NCBI GenBank assembly: GCA_003222395.1
Contig: QHWB01000052.1
Span: forward strand, 372,001-436,000
DNA length: 64,000 nt
DNA from: Acidobacteriota bacterium
GTDB taxonomy: Bacteria > Acidobacteriota > Vicinamibacteria > Vicinamibacterales > CAVVIG01
Direction: 5' to 3'
Shown: piece after piece, positions 895-9,361 of the stretch
How the letters are laid out: each line of letters starts with the position of its first letter
Position numbering within the stretch: position 1 is the first letter of the stretch
Position numbers and translations under genes: made by a program
Notes under the pieces: generated by a model
Database searches by the model: none
What the model saw: the letters and a program-made list of their open reading frames with translations, nothing else
What the model was told of the DNA's origin: nothing

Positions 895-3059
895 CTAGCC
901 AGGTTCCGGCAACGAGTCAGCGCGTCGACGTCGACCGCGGCCGCGAACGATCGCGAGCGCGAACGCCGCCACCACGACCAGCCCTGCACTTCCGAGTCGT
1001 GCCTGCGCCGACGAAGAACGCGCGGTCGCGCGGCGCAGGATGTCGTCGTACTTGGCGTCGGCCTGCTGCACGCGGGAACGCAGCAGATATCGCTGGCGTT
1101 CCCACTGCGGCGCGAGCACGCTCACGGTTTCCCATGCTTCGAGGTCGCCCATCGGGTCGACGGGAGCGGTGAGCAGATCCTGCAGAATCTGGTGTTCTCC
1201 GCGCACCAGCTCCGCGACGGCCGGCGTTTTCCAGAACGGCTGGTCGTCGACGACGACGTAGATTGGCGCCGAGTGCGCGATTGCGCCGAGCTCCTGCAGC
1301 TGGCCCTGCGCGGGCACTTCCCGGTTTCCGGTGGCGCGCACCGCGATCCACATGCTGTGATCGGCCGTCAACTCCTTTTGCAGCTCGATGCGGTCGCCGC
1401 CGCTCGCACGCTCGGTGACGGCAACGTCGCCCTGCACGATCAGGTCGAGACGCCCCAATGCGTCGATGTCGGGGTTGAGCCGCGCGGCCGCCGCGATCTG
1501 GAGCTGCGCGCCTCGCGCGACATGAATCTCGTCGCCCATTCCTCGTCCGTTGATCGTGAAATCGAGCAACGGACCGTTTGTGACGAACGCGTGGCCCGCT
1601 TTGAAGGATGAATACCAGGCGTCCGGATCGAACGGACCATCGAGCTTCACGTAGTACCGCTCGACGCCAGGCAGCGAGGGACCGAAGTACGGGTAATCGG
1701 ATCCGGCGGCGGGACTTATCTTGAACCCGAGATTGAGATACGGATACCAATTGTCGACGCCGAGGCGCCCGCCCTGCAGCACTTCGATGAAGTCGACGAG
1801 ACCGAACGGAGCATCGAGCGACAGACCGCGGCGGCCGTTGAAGATCTGCGCCATGTGCGCGTAGCCGGACACGCCGCCCTGCATGTGCGACGCTTCGAAG
1901 ACCTTGTGATACGAAAAGAAATCCTCCGGCGGAAGATGAATCGGCTTCTGCAGGTTGTGATGAATCGTGTGGCCGCGCTCCGTCGTTCGCGGATCTTCCT
2001 GTCCCGATGCAAGCAGGTGCCCGTCACGCAGATACCGTCCGGCCTTGCCCCACGCCGGTTGGCGGTAATGCGTCGTGACGATGTTGCCCATCTCGAGGAG
2101 ATTGCCGACGTGCACGTCCTCGGCTGCGACCTGTCCCCACACGGCGGCGTCCTGCGTTTGTTCGCGCATGCGACGCGCGCGAGTTGACCGGCTTTCACGT
2201 CGACCGCGCCCTTGAAGACGCGGTACTCGGGTCCTTTCGTCGCGACGACCTCGTACGATCCGGCAGGCACCTGAGTCTCGTAGGTGCCGTTCACGTAGAA
2301 GGCCTGACGCTCGGCGGAAGGCCAGAGCAGCCGCGGCGCCACCCACAGCAGCCGCGTTTCGTCGGCGTACCTGTGAATCAGCAGAGCCTGGTCCGACGGC
2401 AGCGGCGTTCGTCCCGTCGCGTCGTACAGCCCCAGGCGTGCCGCGACGAGCTCGCCCGTATCCGCATCCTTTACTTCGATTTGAACGCGTCCGCGAGGCG
2501 CCGCCGCCTTCGTCGCGGCGCTTCGGACGATCGAGATGTCGCAGAGCGCAATGCCGCCGCGCGCGCCGACGGCGAGATCGGTGTTGAGAATGCCGAGGCC
2601 GGCGAAGCGGGCCCGTTCGAGGCGGACCGTCGCCTTCCGCAGCGCCGCGCCCGGCTCAGGCGAGATCTCTTTCGAGATGCCGTATCCATCGCCGCCGTTC
2701 TTGTCCCAGGCAATCGCGAAGGGCTGCGTGCGATCGGGCGCGTACGTCACGGTCACGTCGACCGGCTCGTCGACATCGAATGCGTATCGATCGTCGACAT
2801 CGAACGCGAACAGATCGCCGAAGAGACATGCCTGGCCGCCAATCGTCATCATCTGTGCCGGCGCCTTGCTGCCGTTCAGGCCCAGTTCGGATCGATTGGC
2901 ATCGAGGACGCGCGTGATGTGATCGCGTTTCCACGTGAGGGACACGACGCGCCGGGCTTCGGTGCCGTGCGCGCGCAACGTGACCGCTTGCCCGGCGGAC
3001 ACAAGCGCGGCGAGCGCCACGAGAGCCGACAATCGAGCGCGCTCATGTCGCAATCTCAC
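895..3059 (-). pseudogene. CehA/McbA-like (PHP-type) metallohydrolase, interrupted by a frame-changing deletion near 2165-2190
   Basis: N-terminal half in ORF 1716-3059 (signal peptide ... FKGAVDVKAGQLARV) and C-terminal half in ORF 895-2346 (MREQTQDAAVWGQVAAEDVHVGNLLEMGN...GHTIHHN...); frames switch at ~2170 and the expected GDxHxH segment is missing. Confidence 0.6.
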
Positions 3060-3083: not shown

Positions 3084-4997
3084 TTACTCCGGCCGGAATT
3101 GCAGCTGCGCGCGAGATTCACCCTTCATCGAGCGGACGCCGAGATACAAATCGCCGCGCGCGAGGGCCTCGCGATCGATCGGCTGAAGCACAACGTCGCC
3201 CGTGGATGCGGACCCGTTGAGCACGCTCAGAATCACCGGGCCGTTGTGGTCCTTCGCCGCCCGGTGTATGGCCACGGAAACAGCGCCGGCGCGCGCGCTC
3301 GTCGCCGACACGTCGTAGGACAAACGCCCTGTCACCGGATCGAATGTGAACGTCGCCCGCACTTCCTCGATGGCTGCGGCGCTGCGCAGCGGCGGCGGAC
3401 GCTTTCCGTTCACGAGCGCAGGTGTCGTGGCCGGCGCGCGGCGGGGCTGGACCGCGCGTTCGAACGCGTACGCGATCGAAAGCAGCCGCGACTCGGTCCA
3501 CGGCGGACCGAGCAGCTCCATGCCGATCGGCACGCCGTCGGCCGTGAAACCTGCGGGTACACTCAGCGCCGGGAAACCGGTGCTCGCGCTGACCTGGCAG
3601 TTGTTCATCCCTCGCACCGGCTCTCCGATGAGCGCAGCCTTGCGGCTCAGAACCGGATAGACCAGCGCATCGACCCGTTGCTCCTCGAGAGCCGCCGTGA
3701 TCAGTTCACGCACCGCCGCACGTTTGTGCAGCGCAATCCGGTGCGCTGCGCTGTCGCGGCTGTCGATTGCGTTGCTCTGCTTGAATCCGGCCTCGAGCGC
3801 CGCGTGATAGTCGCCCCGCTTGAGAATTTCTCCGAGTGAATGAACCGGAGCCTGCGGGTAGCGGGCGAGGTAATCGAGCAAATCGAATTTGAATTCCGTG
3901 TTGATGACGCTCGACCCCTGCAGCGCGGTCTCGAGTCCGGCAATCGCGACGTCGACGATCGTCGCGCCCCGATCCCGCATCGCATCGATCGCCTTGCGGA
4001 CGACGTCGCCGCCTTCCGTGTCTTCCGGCGCGGAGCCAAAAAGATTCCTGACGGCTCCAAGACGCGCGCCGGCGAGCGCCTCGGGCGTGAGCGCGTCGCG
4101 ATAGCTTGCCGCGCGGTGTCCCTCGCCATCGCGCGTCACCGGATCATCCGCGTCGAGGCCGACCGTCGCGTCGAGCACGACCGCCAGATCGACGGACGTC
4201 CGCGCCAGCGGCCCGCCGACGTCCTGCGTGTGCGAGAGCGGGATGATTCCCTGCCGGCTGGAGAGTCCCATCGTGCCCCGCAGGCCGAACAGATTGTTGT
4301 TCGCCGCCGGGATTCGAATCGATCCACACGTGTCGCTGCCCAGTCCGGCCGCAGCGAAGCTCGCCGCGACAGCCGCGCCGGTACCGCCGCTCGAACCGCC
4401 GGGATTGCGCGACGGATCGTACGGGTTTCGCGTCTGACCGGAAATCGAGCTGATGGTCGTAATGCCGCGCGCGAGCTCGTGCAGGTTCGTCTTCCCGATG
4501 ATCACGGCGCCGGCGTCACGCAGCTTCCGGACCTGGAACGCGTCGCGTTCGGGGGAGAAACCCGTCAGGGCGATCGATCCGCCGGTCGTCGGCAAATCGC
4601 GCGTGTCGTAATTGTCCTTGACGACGACCGGAATGCCGTGCAGCGGTCCGCGAACGCGACCGGAGGCGCGTTCGTCATCGAGCGCCTTTGCGGCGTCGAG
4701 CGCGCGCGGGTTCAGCGTCACCATCGCGTTCAGGCGTGGACCCTCCTGATCGTAGGCGGCGATGCGCGCGAGGTATGCGGCGACGAGCTGTCTGGAGCTG
4801 ACCGTCCGAGCGGCCATCGCGTCCTGCAGCTCGGTGATCGTCTTCTCGACGACGTCGAATGACGCCTCCGAAGCCGCCGCCGCGCGCTGAACCCGCAGCC
4901 GGGCAGGCACCGCGGCTGATACTCCGAAGGCAGTCGCCACGGCCGCCACGAACGCCACGCGCGTGATCTGTCGTCGCAAGTTGCGGTCTTGTAGCAC
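3084..4997 (-). CDS. Amidase signature family protein with C-terminal CHRD-like domain
   Basis: 637 aa; GIPVVVKDNYDT, NPGGSSGGTGAAVAA, GLGSDTCGSIRIPA amidase signature; C-terminal FTFDPVTGRLSYDV...AIHRAAKDHNGPVILSVL...LARGDLYLGVRS resembles CHRD. Confidence 0.92.
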   Translation of the reverse strand: MLQDRNLRRQITRVAFVAAVATAFGVSAAVPARLRVQRAAAASEASFDVVEKTITELQDAMAARTVSSRQLVAAYLARIAAYDQEGPRLNAMVTLNPRALDAAKALDDERASGRVRGPLHGIPVVVKDNYDTRDLPTTGGSIALTGFSPERDAFQVRKLRDAGAVIIGKTNLHELARGITTISSISGQTRNPYDPSRNPGGSSGGTGAAVAASFAAAGLGSDTCGSIRIPAANNNLFGLRGTMGLSSRQGIIPLSHTQDVGGPLARTSVDLAVVLDATVGLDADDPVTRDGEGHRAASYRDALTPEALAGARLGAVRNLFGSAPEDTEGGDVVRKAIDAMRDRGATIVDVAIAGLETALQGSSVINTEFKFDLLDYLARYPQAPVHSLGEILKRGDYHAALEAGFKQSNAIDSRDSAAHRIALHKRAAVRELITAALEEQRVDALVYPVLSRKAALIGEPVRGMNNCQVSASTGFPALSVPAGFTADGVPIGMELLGPPWTESRLLSIAYAFERAVQPRRAPATTPALVNGKRPPPLRSAAAIEEVRATFTFDPVTGRLSYDVSATSARAGAVSVAIHRAAKDHNGPVILSVLNGSASTGDVVLQPIDREALARGDLYLGVRSMKGESRAQLQFRPE

Positions 4998-5016
4998 CAG
5001 CCGTATGGAGTGTCAA

Positions 5017-5060
5017 CGACGCAAATGTCGTCAGTGCGCGCATCTTCGACAGAAATGTCG
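5017..5060. promoter_or_regulatory. Candidate tandem dyad operator: CGACGCAAATGTCG (5017-5030) and CGACAGAAATGTCG (5047-5060)
   Basis: Two 14-bp sites sharing CGAC..AAATGTCG, start-to-start spacing 30 bp, in the 80-bp divergent intergenic region. Confidence 0.55.
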
Positions 5061-5110
5061 GACGCGAAGATCATTCGTTGGTGCTAGGATGCGCCGGGCT
5101 TCGCGGCTCG

Positions 5111-6853
5111 ATGGCCAACCTCTTCTTCCGGACGCTTTCGCAGGGATTGCAGGCGTTCACGCCGGTCGCGGCGGCGCTGATGTGGTGCGCCGCCGTGGGC
5201 GCGGCGCGACACAGATCCGCGATCCGATACGGCCTCCTTCTGTCGATCCCGGCGACCGTTCCGTCCGCGTGGTGGTTTCAGGGCAGCGCGGCGCGTGCGC
5301 TCGACGAAGCCATCCTTGCCACGGTGACGTTCGCAATCGTGCTCGTGTGCGCGCGCAGGCTGCGATCATCGATCGGCGGCGCGACAATAGGTCATTCGCC
5401 TCCAGCGCGCAGTGGCACTTTTTTCGCGCTCGCTGCCGCGACGATCCTCGTCGTGGTTCGTCAGACGATGGAAATCGGATCGGTGTTGAGCGTGGCGGCG
5501 TTGCAGCTGCGCTCGTTCGACGCGACGTCGGCGATTGTGACCGGCGCCGCGCTTGCGGGTGTCGCCGCGTGGTCGTGGGCTCGCCTCGGCCGACAGCTGT
5601 CGCTACCGGTGGTTGAAGTTGCGATCGGCACGTTCGCCGCGCTCTTTCTCGCGCAGGTTGCCGTGTACGCCTTCCACGAGTGGGCGGAAGCGCGGCTGCT
5701 GCCATGGAGCGAGGCGCTGCACGCCGCGACGGAGCCGTACGGACCCGACGGGATCTACGGTATTCATTTCAGCGACCTGTTGCTTGTCGGTCCGCTTGCC
5801 GCGGTGGCGTGGACGCTGGTCCGCTCACGCGTCGCCGCGGCGCCGCGCGCTCGCGTCGTCAGCGCCGTCGCGCGCCCGCGCCTCGCCACCGTGACGATCG
5901 CGGTCGTGTGCCTGGCGTCGATGGGCATGCAGCGCGCCGACGCGCCGCCGCCGCTCACGCACGCGGGCGCCGCGCCCGCTGAAATCGCGCCCGTCCTCGC
6001 CCGACCGCACGTCGTGTTCCGCGACACCATGCCCGGACCGAATTTCGGTCGACTGAGCGTGGCGCCCCTCGACAACGTGCGACTTCGCCTGGCGGCCGCG
6101 GTGACGTGCGAACGGGTCTCGTTTGCGGCCGGACGTGGCCTCTGCCTGCACGTCGATCGCGGCGTGTTCAACCGCTACACCGCCCTGCTGCTCGACGGCC
6201 AGCTGCGTGCCGGCCCTTCGATCAAGCTGCAGGGTCTTCCCAGCCGGACGCGCGCCGCCGCCGACGGTCAGGTCGGCGCCGTCACGGTCTTCGTGACCGG
6301 CGACGATTACGCGTCGGAGTTTTCGACGCGGACCACGATCGTCGACCTGTCGAGCGGCGACGAGATCGGCGAGCTCGAGCAGTTCGCGACGTGGCGGAAC
6401 GGCGCGCGGTTTCGGGCCGTCGATTTCAACTTCTGGGGCGTCACGTTCGCGCGCGACACGAACACGTTTTACGCATCGCTCCGCAGCGCGGGCACCACGT
6501 ATCTGGTTCGCGGCGAGCTGGGGTTGCGCAGACTGACGGTCTTGCGCATGGGCGTCGAGTGTCCGTCGCTCTCACCGGACGGTCGCTTGCTCGCGTACAA
6601 GAAACGTGTCGGCCCAAGCCCCGACAGCTGGCGGCTGCACGTGCTCGAGCTCGCGACGAACGTGGAACGAATCATCGACGGCGAGACGCGATACATCGAC
6701 GATCAGGTCGAATGGCTCGATTCACAGCACGTGCTGTACGCCATTCCGCGCCGGACGACCGCGATTTCAGACGTGTGGGTCGCGCCGGTCGACGGCGGCG
6801 GGTCCGCGCGGATCTTTCTGTCGGAAGCCGAATCGCCCATCGTCGTTCATTGA
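5111..6853 (+). CDS. FTR1-permease-like membrane domain fused to C-terminal TolB/WD40-like beta-propeller
   Basis: ORF 5078-6853 with likely start MANLFF at 5111; hydrophobic helices, RQTMEIGSVL and FHEWAEARLLPWS...YGPDGIYG resembling FTR1-type proteins; C-term SPDGRLLAYKKRVG...DVWVAPVDGG propeller-like. Confidence 0.5.
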   Translation: MANLFFRTLSQGLQAFTPVAAALMWCAAVGAARHRSAIRYGLLLSIPATVPSAWWFQGSAARALDEAILATVTFAIVLVCARRLRSSIGGATIGHSPPARSGTFFALAAATILVVVRQTMEIGSVLSVAALQLRSFDATSAIVTGAALAGVAAWSWARLGRQLSLPVVEVAIGTFAALFLAQVAVYAFHEWAEARLLPWSEALHAATEPYGPDGIYGIHFSDLLLVGPLAAVAWTLVRSRVAAAPRARVVSAVARPRLATVTIAVVCLASMGMQRADAPPPLTHAGAAPAEIAPVLARPHVVFRDTMPGPNFGRLSVAPLDNVRLRLAAAVTCERVSFAAGRGLCLHVDRGVFNRYTALLLDGQLRAGPSIKLQGLPSRTRAAADGQVGAVTVFVTGDDYASEFSTRTTIVDLSSGDEIGELEQFATWRNGARFRAVDFNFWGVTFARDTNTFYASLRSAGTTYLVRGELGLRRLTVLRMGVECPSLSPDGRLLAYKKRVGPSPDSWRLHVLELATNVERIIDGETRYIDDQVEWLDSQHVLYAIPRRTTAISDVWVAPVDGGGSARIFLSEAESPIVVH

Positions 6854-6854
6854 G

Positions 6855-6965
6855 CTGGTTGCTGGTTGCTGGGTTGCTGGCGGCGGGGTTGCTGGGGCTG
6901 GTTTCATTGCTGGTTGCCGGTTGCTGGGAGGAATCATTACCAGCCACCAGCAACCAGCCAGCCAC
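6855..6965. repeat. GGTTGCTGG-rich tandem/inverted repeat in the leader of the DMFase-like gene
   Basis: Left GCTGGTTGCTGGTTGCTGGGTTGCTGG...; right CCAGCCACCAGCAACCAGCCAGCCACCAG is complementary to it. Confidence 0.75.
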
Positions 6966-6979
6966 CAGAGGAGGTTCGC

Positions 6980-9361
6980 ATGTCGACCGTACGCACGCTG
7001 ATACGGATCGCGATCTTCGTCTCGCTCGCGCTGATGGTCGGGCGCGCGCAGGCGCCGCAGGTCCAGCCGTCCGCGCAGGAAGGGCTCGACCGGATGGGAA
7101 TCGTCGGCTACGCGGATCACATGACGGCGCAGCCCGGTGATGCGATCAAGTTCATGGTGAGCAGCAGCGCGTCGCGGTATCGCGTCGACATCGTTCGCAT
7201 CATCCACGGCGACATCAACCCCAGGGGTCCCGGGATGAAAGAGTCGGTGGTGGAGACGGCGACCAACGGCGAATACTCCGGCAAGCGCCAGACGTTGCCC
7301 CTCGGATCGTACGTCGTCGTGCGCGACAATCCGGCGCTGCGTCTGACGGGCAGCTTCACGATGACGGCGTGGATCGCGGCGACGCGGCACGATCCGGTGG
7401 CGCCGGGCGGGCGCGCGCCCGACGGCGATCAGGGCATTCTGACGAAGTGGTCGCCGCGCGATCAGAGCGGATACGGTTTGTTCATCGAGAACGACGCGCG
7501 TCTCGCCTTGTGGCTCGGCGGACCGGGCGGCCGGATCGAGAAGGTGCGTGCGGAGATGCCGCTCCGGCCGTGGGTGCCGTCGATTCCTGGCGCGGCCAAC
7601 GCGCCGCGGCCGCAGCACGTCACCACGACGTCGTGGTATTTCGTCGCGGCCTCGTACGACGCGGCGGCCGGCCGCGTCACGCTCGTTCAGGAGCCGCTGA
7701 CCGAGTTCCCGTTCGATCCGACGCGTTCGACCACCGAGCATGCCACGCAGCTGAAGTCGCTCTCGACCAATGCCGCGCCGTTTCTGATCGCGGCGTATTC
7801 GTCGGGCGCCGCTGCCGGCGGCGAACCCACCAGCAGCGGTCACTTCAACGGCAAGATCGACAACCCGCGGATTTACGGTCGCACGTTGAGCCGGCGCGAT
7901 CTCGACGAGATTCGCCTGGGCCGCGGTCCGACCGATGCGATCGCGTCGTGGAATTTCTCGCTCGACATTCCGACCAGCGTCGTCACCGATACGTCGTCGC
8001 GGAAGCTCAATGGCATTGCGGTCAATACGCCGACGCGCGCGGTCACTGGCCACAACTGGACGGGCCGGGAGATGGATTTCAAACACGCGCGCGACGAGTA
8101 CGGCGCGATTTACTTTCACGACGACGATCTGGAAGACACGAAATGGGAGCCAGGATTCGAGTTCAAGGTGCCGCCGGATCTCAAGAGCGGCGTCTACGCC
8201 GCACGCCTTCGAACTGATTCGGCCGAGGACTACGTGCCGTTCTTCGTGCGGCCGAAGAAGGGAACGGCGACGGCGAAGATCGCGTTTCTCGTTCCGACGT
8301 TCAGCTATCTCGCGTACGGCGGGACCGGCAACTCGGGATTCAACATCCTGAGCAATTACGCGCACCACACCGACGGCAGCGGCATCGGTTACTCGTCGCG
8401 CCTGAGGCCGATCACCAACATGCGGCCCAAGATCACGACGCGCAACCCATGGCAGTTCATGGAGGACACCTACATCGTCGATTGGCTCGACGTGAAAGGG
8501 TTCACGGTCGACGTCATCACCGATCAGGACCTGCATTTCGAGGGCGCGGCACTGCTGGCGCCGTACAAGGCGGTTCTCACAGGGTCGCATCCGGAGTACT
8601 ACTCACAACAAATGCTCGACGGCCTTCACGCGTATCTCGAGAAAGGCGGTCGCGTGGTGTATCTCGGCGGCAACGGATTCTATTGGGTGACGCCGATGGA
8701 TCCGGCCGGACGCTTCATCGAGCTGCGGCGCCGCGACGGAACCGAGCACTGGCAGGGGGCGCCCGGCGAGTCGTATCACAGCCTCACGGGCGAACCGGGC
8801 GGTCTCTGGCGGTTCCGCGGTCTGCCGCCGCAGCGGTACTTCGGCGTCGGCTTCACCGCGCAGGGTTTCGACAAGGGGTCGCCATATAAAAGGATGCCGG
8901 GCAGCTTCGACCCCCGCGTCGCGTTCATCTTCGAAGGGATCGGCGCCGATGAAATCATCGGGGACTTCCCCTCACTGGCGCTCGGCGAAGGGGCTGCGGG
9001 ACAGGAGCTCGATCGCGTCGATTATCCGATCGGATCGCCCGCGCACACGCTGCTGCTCGCGCAGTCGTTCGGCCACTCCGATGCTTATCAGCATGTCGTC
9101 GAAGAGGTGAACACGTCCGATTCGCGGCAAGGCGGAACCGTCAACAAACTGGTGCATGCCGATCTCGCGTATCTCGAGTACCCCAACGGCGGCGCGGTGT
9201 TTTCGACCGGATCGATCGCGTGGTGCGCAAGTCTCTCGTACAACAACTACACGAACAACGTGTCGCGACTCACGAAAAACGTCCTGCGCCGCTTCGCGTC
9301 GGATGTGCCGCTGCCTCCGCCATCGACGTCGCGCCCGACGAGTCAACCGGCGATTCGGTAA
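6980..9361 (+). CDS. N,N-dimethylformamidase large (beta) subunit-like protein with LamG-like segment
   Basis: RBS GAGGAGG then ATG at 6980; YKAVLTGSHPEYYSQQMLDGLHAYLEKGGRVVYLGGNGFYW, GGLWRFRG, HADLAYLEYPNGGAVFSTGSIAW. Confidence 0.85.
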   Translation: MSTVRTLIRIAIFVSLALMVGRAQAPQVQPSAQEGLDRMGIVGYADHMTAQPGDAIKFMVSSSASRYRVDIVRIIHGDINPRGPGMKESVVETATNGEYSGKRQTLPLGSYVVVRDNPALRLTGSFTMTAWIAATRHDPVAPGGRAPDGDQGILTKWSPRDQSGYGLFIENDARLALWLGGPGGRIEKVRAEMPLRPWVPSIPGAANAPRPQHVTTTSWYFVAASYDAAAGRVTLVQEPLTEFPFDPTRSTTEHATQLKSLSTNAAPFLIAAYSSGAAAGGEPTSSGHFNGKIDNPRIYGRTLSRRDLDEIRLGRGPTDAIASWNFSLDIPTSVVTDTSSRKLNGIAVNTPTRAVTGHNWTGREMDFKHARDEYGAIYFHDDDLEDTKWEPGFEFKVPPDLKSGVYAARLRTDSAEDYVPFFVRPKKGTATAKIAFLVPTFSYLAYGGTGNSGFNILSNYAHHTDGSGIGYSSRLRPITNMRPKITTRNPWQFMEDTYIVDWLDVKGFTVDVITDQDLHFEGAALLAPYKAVLTGSHPEYYSQQMLDGLHAYLEKGGRVVYLGGNGFYWVTPMDPAGRFIELRRRDGTEHWQGAPGESYHSLTGEPGGLWRFRGLPPQRYFGVGFTAQGFDKGSPYKRMPGSFDPRVAFIFEGIGADEIIGDFPSLALGEGAAGQELDRVDYPIGSPAHTLLLAQSFGHSDAYQHVVEEVNTSDSRQGGTVNKLVHADLAYLEYPNGGAVFSTGSIAWCASLSYNNYTNNVSRLTKNVLRRFASDVPLPPPSTSRPTSQPAIR

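Follow-up and report, generated by a model that had tools for sequence, protein, structure and literature searches.

A twin dyad between the divergent operons of a predicted amide-cleaving cluster in the Vicinamibacterales, probably an enhancer-type site of a NifA-like regulator

Introduction

The window, by which we mean the whole stretch of 64,000 nucleotides of acidobacterial DNA that was analysed, carries two short dyads between an amidase gene and a divergently transcribed gene for a membrane protein (gene 2). What kind of protein would bind such a pair, and with what effect on the two genes? An earlier note had proposed a dimeric repressor that binds cooperatively and controls both, a BlaI/MecI-type protein being one candidate. 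The positions given there for the two dyads are exact (Table 1); 12 of their 14 letters are identical, and the distance from start to start is 30 bp.

Gene cluster and promoters

Table 1. Features of the divergent locus, in window coordinates
Feature	Position	Strand	Remarks
Dyad 1, CGACGCAAATGTCG	5017..5030	.	Core GACG-CAAA-TGTC; 1 mismatch to GACA-N4-TGTC; matrix score 13.5
Dyad 2, CGACAGAAATGTCG	5047..5060	.	Perfect GACA-N4-TGTC; matrix score 19.3
Leftward promoter, -10 TACAAG	4988..4993	-	17-bp spacer; from sequence, conserved in G009
Leftward promoter, -35 TTGACA	5011..5016	-	From sequence, conserved in G009
Rightward promoter, extended -10 TGCTAGGAT	5082..5090	+	No recognisable -35; from sequence, conserved in G009
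CehA/McbA-type metallohydrolase	895..3059	-	Two frames, broken near 2154; G009 ortholog matches NF038032
Amidase	3084..4979	-	PF01425, E 5e-99; start uncertain, TTG 4979 or GTG 4958
Gene 2	5111..6853	+	Membrane domain (FTR1-like according to the earlier note) and predicted propeller-like C-terminal part
N,N-dimethylformamidase beta-like protein	6971..9361	+	DMFA2_C, PF20254; with laminin-G-like domain

The two divergent genes had been thought to start at GTG 4997 and TTG 5078. These codons lie at or inside promoter elements that are conserved in the closest ortholog (genome G009), so that neither can be a gene start. Measured from 4979 or 4958 as far as 5111, the gap has a length of about 130-150 bp, and not the supposed 80 bp. 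If the transcript starts are placed 7 bp after each -10 element, as we have done, both dyads are upstream of both promoters, their centres falling at approximately -42 and -73 of each predicted start, and dyad 1 directly abuts the minus-strand -35 element.

The gene products are consistent with the release of nitrogen from amides, their substrates being predicted. Gene 2 has no Pfam or NCBIfam match. Compared with its G009 counterpart, the CehA/McbA-type gene is missing approximately 70 bp, including the stretch with the HxH motif, which is either real decay or an assembly error. A gene for a PEP-CTERM protein (PF07589; 9374-10066, minus strand) adjoins the cluster, and the gap between gene 2 and the dimethylformamidase-like gene (6850-6960) contains a low-complexity GGTTGCTGG tract and, after it, the inverted form CCAGCAACCAGC.

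Two other readings of the dyads were considered and rejected. The overall symmetry of the promoter region extends to only 19 of 55 positions, which does not fit an inverted duplication. GAC-N6-GTC is also the DrdI restriction site; we take this agreement to be a coincidence of letters.

Frequency of single and paired dyads

Dinucleotide shuffles of the gap contain a like pair in 0.015% of cases. Intergenic DNA of this genome (52 kb) was found to hold 15 dyad pairs of any sequence, with about 0.5 expected from shuffles; 11 of these belong to one tandem array, and one other is a LacI-type operator pair. By our own scaling this amounts to roughly p = 0.05 for a single 64-kb window, so the pair by itself is suggestive, and the remainder of the case is supplied by comparison with relatives. 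The LacI-type pair, CTTTAGCGTTAAAG and CTTTACCGGTAAAG, located beside a lacI-like reading frame (G000 C1:122319-122355), is a useful positive control for paired-dyad scans. A tandem array with a period of 34 bp, built on the dyad CGCGCTAC[AG]TCGCG, is found at about 163984-164200 of the same contig.

Taken singly, the dyads are unremarkable in this genome. CGAC-N6-GTCG occurs 2150 times in its 7.74 Mb, and CGACATTTNNGTCG has five exact matches, with approximately four expected (our estimate from the CGAC-N6-GTCG count and base composition). Ten of the 70 matches with at most one mismatch are intergenic, two of these being the window dyads themselves, where 8.7% of the DNA surveyed is intergenic. 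The genome scan with a single 14-mer, as suggested in the earlier note, thus gave no promoter enrichment. Footprinting with orthologs of gene 2 and of the amidase was likewise negative, the promoters being kept in one (G009) and the dyads in none. According to the earlier note, its proposal would be refuted if the motif were neither enriched upstream of genes nor conserved at orthologs. With ten of 70 matches intergenic and the closest ortholog devoid of dyads, the single dyads fail this test; the pair, followed across the order, passes it.

The BlaI/MecI proposal had in its favour that such operators are short, GC-armed dyads lying over a promoter, and that the genome has six BlaI-type matches. 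The readable promoters of its own blaI-type genes, however, carry quite different dyads (CTCTTAAAGTATTAAGAG, TCTAGCAGCATGCTAGA and CTACGAAAGACATCGTAG), and we consider this identification extremely improbable.

A twin site across the order

Across 161 genomes of the order, the extended dyad ACGACATTTNNGTCGT is matched four times: twice in this genome, and twice in two other families, where the match precedes an ammonium-transporter gene by approximately 200 bp. In 48 amtB upstream regions of the order, GACA-N4-TGTC occurs at 1.5 per kb, compared with 0.19 per kb in ordinary sequence of this genome, and the only dyad spacings between 12 and 97 bp are 30 (eight cases) and 31 bp (four cases). An amtB-linked twin of genome G068 contains dyad 2 of the window letter for letter.

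Searched with an allowed spacing of 29-32 bp, the twin pattern is present at 39 places in 30 of the 161 genomes, and the reversed control pattern at one. Neighbouring genes were read for one place per genome, the gene calls of the relatives being mechanical reading frames. Six twins are beside amtB (L270, L272, L273, L275, L278 and L279), with further amtB-linked twins, by position, in G068 and G019; three are beside BBP2 porins (L261, L271 and L277), one beside a glutaminase (L255), and one beside a formate/nitrite transporter (L258). GAF-sigma54 activators accompany three, the twin being at the activator's own start in L265 and the activator adjoining amtB in L278 and L279. Roughly ten places are inside genes and probably due to chance. 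In L262 (by Pfam) and L268 (by eye) the twins overlap the start region of frames of the circularly permuted ATP-grasp type, which are possibly further members of the regulon. A sigma54-like element is located 40-300 bp from 14 of 26 twins, at 84-89 bp in six of these, compared with 3.5% of control positions.

The window pair matches this family in sequence, with one mismatch in GACGCAAATGTC and none in GACAGAAATGTC where one per dyad was allowed; in spacing, its 30 bp agreeing with the rule of 30 or 31; and in gene context, since an amidase and a DMFA2_C protein would fit nitrogen acquisition and relatives have twins at the same cluster. A matrix trained without the window ranks the pair first in 844 kb of the same genome, with a score of 32.9; the next pair scores 15.2. 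The sequences themselves show that such a family exists, that its spacing is fixed, which genes it neighbours, and that the window pair is one of its members.

That two GC-rich dyads should merely happen to be alike is very improbable: the abundance of CGAC-N6-GTCG and the expected number of the exact 12-letter motif are what could be said for chance, but against it stand the rarity of such a pair in gap shuffles, the wide margin in matrix rank, and the 39 places versus one in the order-wide control.

Over the 700 bp read, no twin precedes either of this genome's two amtB genes, one of which is the last of a glnD-glnK-amtB run, and the genome stretches read contain no second strong twin. In this genome the dyad matrix gives its highest score for a single site to a near-perfect palindrome, GCACGACATTTTTGTCGTGC (G000 C1:231847-231862; L081, L197), just upstream of a gene for a CheY-like response regulator and without a twin. 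Dyads of another type, CAGAC-[AT]TTN-GTC (10 bp), precede sigma54-like promoters at gene 2 paralogs (L073, at G000 C76:23598; L074; L079; L117) and also lie, at G000 C76:80808, between two genes for PrsR-like AAA+ regulators beside an exopolysaccharide cluster; they resemble a binding site for another enhancer-binding protein. We have kept CAGAC-TTTT-GTC apart from the window motif because its half-sites are 2 bp closer and its neighbours are PrsR-like regulators.

The same cluster in relatives

Three relatives bear directly on the window cluster. In G009 a CehA-type gene, rather than an amidase gene, is divergent from gene 2; the promoter elements are kept and the dyads are absent. Nothing like the dyads was found at amidase orthologs. 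In the G009 promoter region (L077 2753-2770) a palindrome, CGCGCGAAGTTTCGCGCG, takes the place of the dyads exactly midway between the conserved promoters. G011 has a twin and a sigma54 element, TGGCCCGGTGTTTGCT, between its orthologs of gene 2 and of the DMFA2_C gene, the latter product being 67% identical over 363 residues. In G017, of the window's own family, a gene for a NifA-like activator immediately precedes a gene 2 homolog, and the start of this activator gene bears a 30-bp twin. These two relatives tie the twin site to the very same gene cluster; a chance twin within a few kb of the cluster in a handful of genomes is expected approximately 0.002 times (our estimate from 39 twins in roughly 700 Mb). 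The site was either gained here before existing promoters or lost in G009.

An unrelated, genome-specific regulator of the TetR, MarR, GntR, CRP or other type, with the likeness to amtB twins arising by convergence, would account for the missing dyads in G009, for the lack of promoter enrichment of single sites, and for the failure to find the activator in the 1.67 Mb read. We think this improbable, because the dyads fit the order-wide family in sequence, in spacing and in gene context, the second-best pair in 844 kb has less than half the score, and two relatives have twins at the same cluster.

The G011 arrangement also raises the idea that the window pair is an enhancer looping to a distant sigma54 promoter, for which the candidate is TGGCGGCGGGGTTGCT (6878-6893), in the gap between gene 2 and the DMFA gene, the same gap in which the G011 promoter lies. 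NtrC enhancers can act over 1 kb or more (PMC7408454). The candidate, however, scores only 9, lies within the low-complexity GGTTGCTGG tract, and is 1.8 kb away, where pairs elsewhere are within approximately 270 bp of their promoter, and looping appears quite improbable.

Candidate regulator and direction of control

The twin-linked activators are one-component proteins with a NifA-like layout of GAF domain, AAA+ domain and Fis-type helix-turn-helix, and are mutual orthologs (57-86% identity). They score 514.7 and 527.3, just under the nifA equivalog cut-off of 528.85. Their sigma54-contact loop reads GAFTDA, a variant held to be functional (PMC4641369). No full-length ortholog was found in the 1.67 of 7.74 Mb (22%) of this genome that were read. 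Near the window pair there is no sigma54-like (-24/-12) promoter, which for an NtrC/NifA-type enhancer would be expected within about 70-300 bp. The canonical NifA site, TGT-N10-ACA, is also absent, neither TGT (5026 and 5056) having ACA after ten bases.

Since the motif family is linked to NifA-like GAF-sigma54 activators and sigma54-like promoters, a repressor is no longer the default assumption. The other part of the earlier proposal, a paired operator that holds dimers about three helical turns apart and may act on both divergent genes, gains support from the 30/31-bp spacing conserved around the order's amtB genes.

We consider it probable that the window dyads are a twin site of the NtrC/NifA-enhancer type, serving a NifA-like regulator of the order's nitrogen-acquisition genes and placing two divergent operons under joint control. 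Two dimers of the regulator would bind one face of the DNA at a distance of three turns, and their assembly would be cooperative. At amtB, glutaminase, nitrite-transporter and porin genes, pairs of this kind lie in front of sigma54-like promoters, which the bound regulator would drive; in the window, by contrast, the pair lies between two divergent promoters of the sigma70 type. With its centres at about -42 and -73 relative to each of these, a single bound complex could govern both operons at once, the amidase/CehA operon on one side and the gene 2/dimethylformamidase-like operon on the other, and nitrogen shortage would most likely raise both. The recurrence of this type of pair beside genes for ammonium transporters, glutaminase and NifA-like regulators suggests that the amide-cleaving cluster is probably switched by nitrogen status. 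Against this explanation are the lack of a sigma54-like promoter by the pair, the promoters kept without dyads in G009, the missing activator ortholog in the 1.67 Mb read, the lack of a twin in 700 bp upstream of this genome's two amtB genes, and the weaker match of dyad 1.

The binding protein, its cooperativity and the nitrogen signal we infer, as we do the direction of the effect, for which activation seems somewhat probable and repression possible; the dyad positions favour joint activation of both operons. That the same regulator on the same twin represses here, its occupancy beside both -35 regions blocking sigma70 polymerase, is in our judgement rather unlikely. Such an effect would suit the abutment of dyad 1 on TTGACA and the twins at the activator genes' own starts, where autorepression would be usual, and in Caulobacter some sigma70 promoters are activated and others repressed by NtrC (PMC10274813). 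Activators, too, classically have their sites centred at -42 and -73, however, and physiologically one would hardly expect an activator that responds to nitrogen starvation to silence genes for amide nitrogen, except if it were bound when nitrogen is in excess.

More tentatively, and with rather less than even confidence, we suggest that a NifA-like, one-component family with a twin code of its own (GACA-N4-TGTC at 30/31 bp) governs nitrogen scavenging in the order and at this locus acts on two divergent sigma70 promoters without sigma54. The twin site is a computable signature from which a regulon of amtB, glutaminase, nitrite transporter, porins and amide hydrolases may be predicted; it names a likely regulator and points to a testable oddity, an enhancer-type pair between two sigma70 promoters. 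The literature searched describes no nitrogen regulon for this soil order, which is weak evidence of novelty.

Comparison with known systems

BlaI/MecI operators are similarly short dyads over a promoter, sometimes paired, but the window dyads do not resemble in sequence those that accompany the blaI-type genes of this genome. The upstream sites of NifA have the form TGT-N10-ACA. The linked activators are laid out like NifA and fall a little short of the nifA equivalog threshold, whereas the dyad is GACA-N4-TGTC and the genes it accompanies serve ammonium transport and the use of amides or nitrite, and are not nif genes.

Upstream of glnA, NtrC binds to a pair of sites in tandem (PMC7408454). 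The window pair resembles that enhancer in having two dyads on one DNA face, approximately three turns apart, at nitrogen genes and with an AAA+, Fis-type activator; it differs in dyad sequence, in the regulator of the relatives, which resembles NifA, has a GAF domain and lacks a receiver domain, and in the lack of a sigma54 promoter at the window locus. In Alphaproteobacteria, NtrC proteins either stimulate or inhibit sigma70 promoters (PMC10274813), and those of Rhodobacter capsulatus and Caulobacter provide the parallel of an enhancer-binding protein at sigma70 promoters. Those NtrCs are without the GAFTGA loop, however, while the activators described here keep it as GAFTDA.
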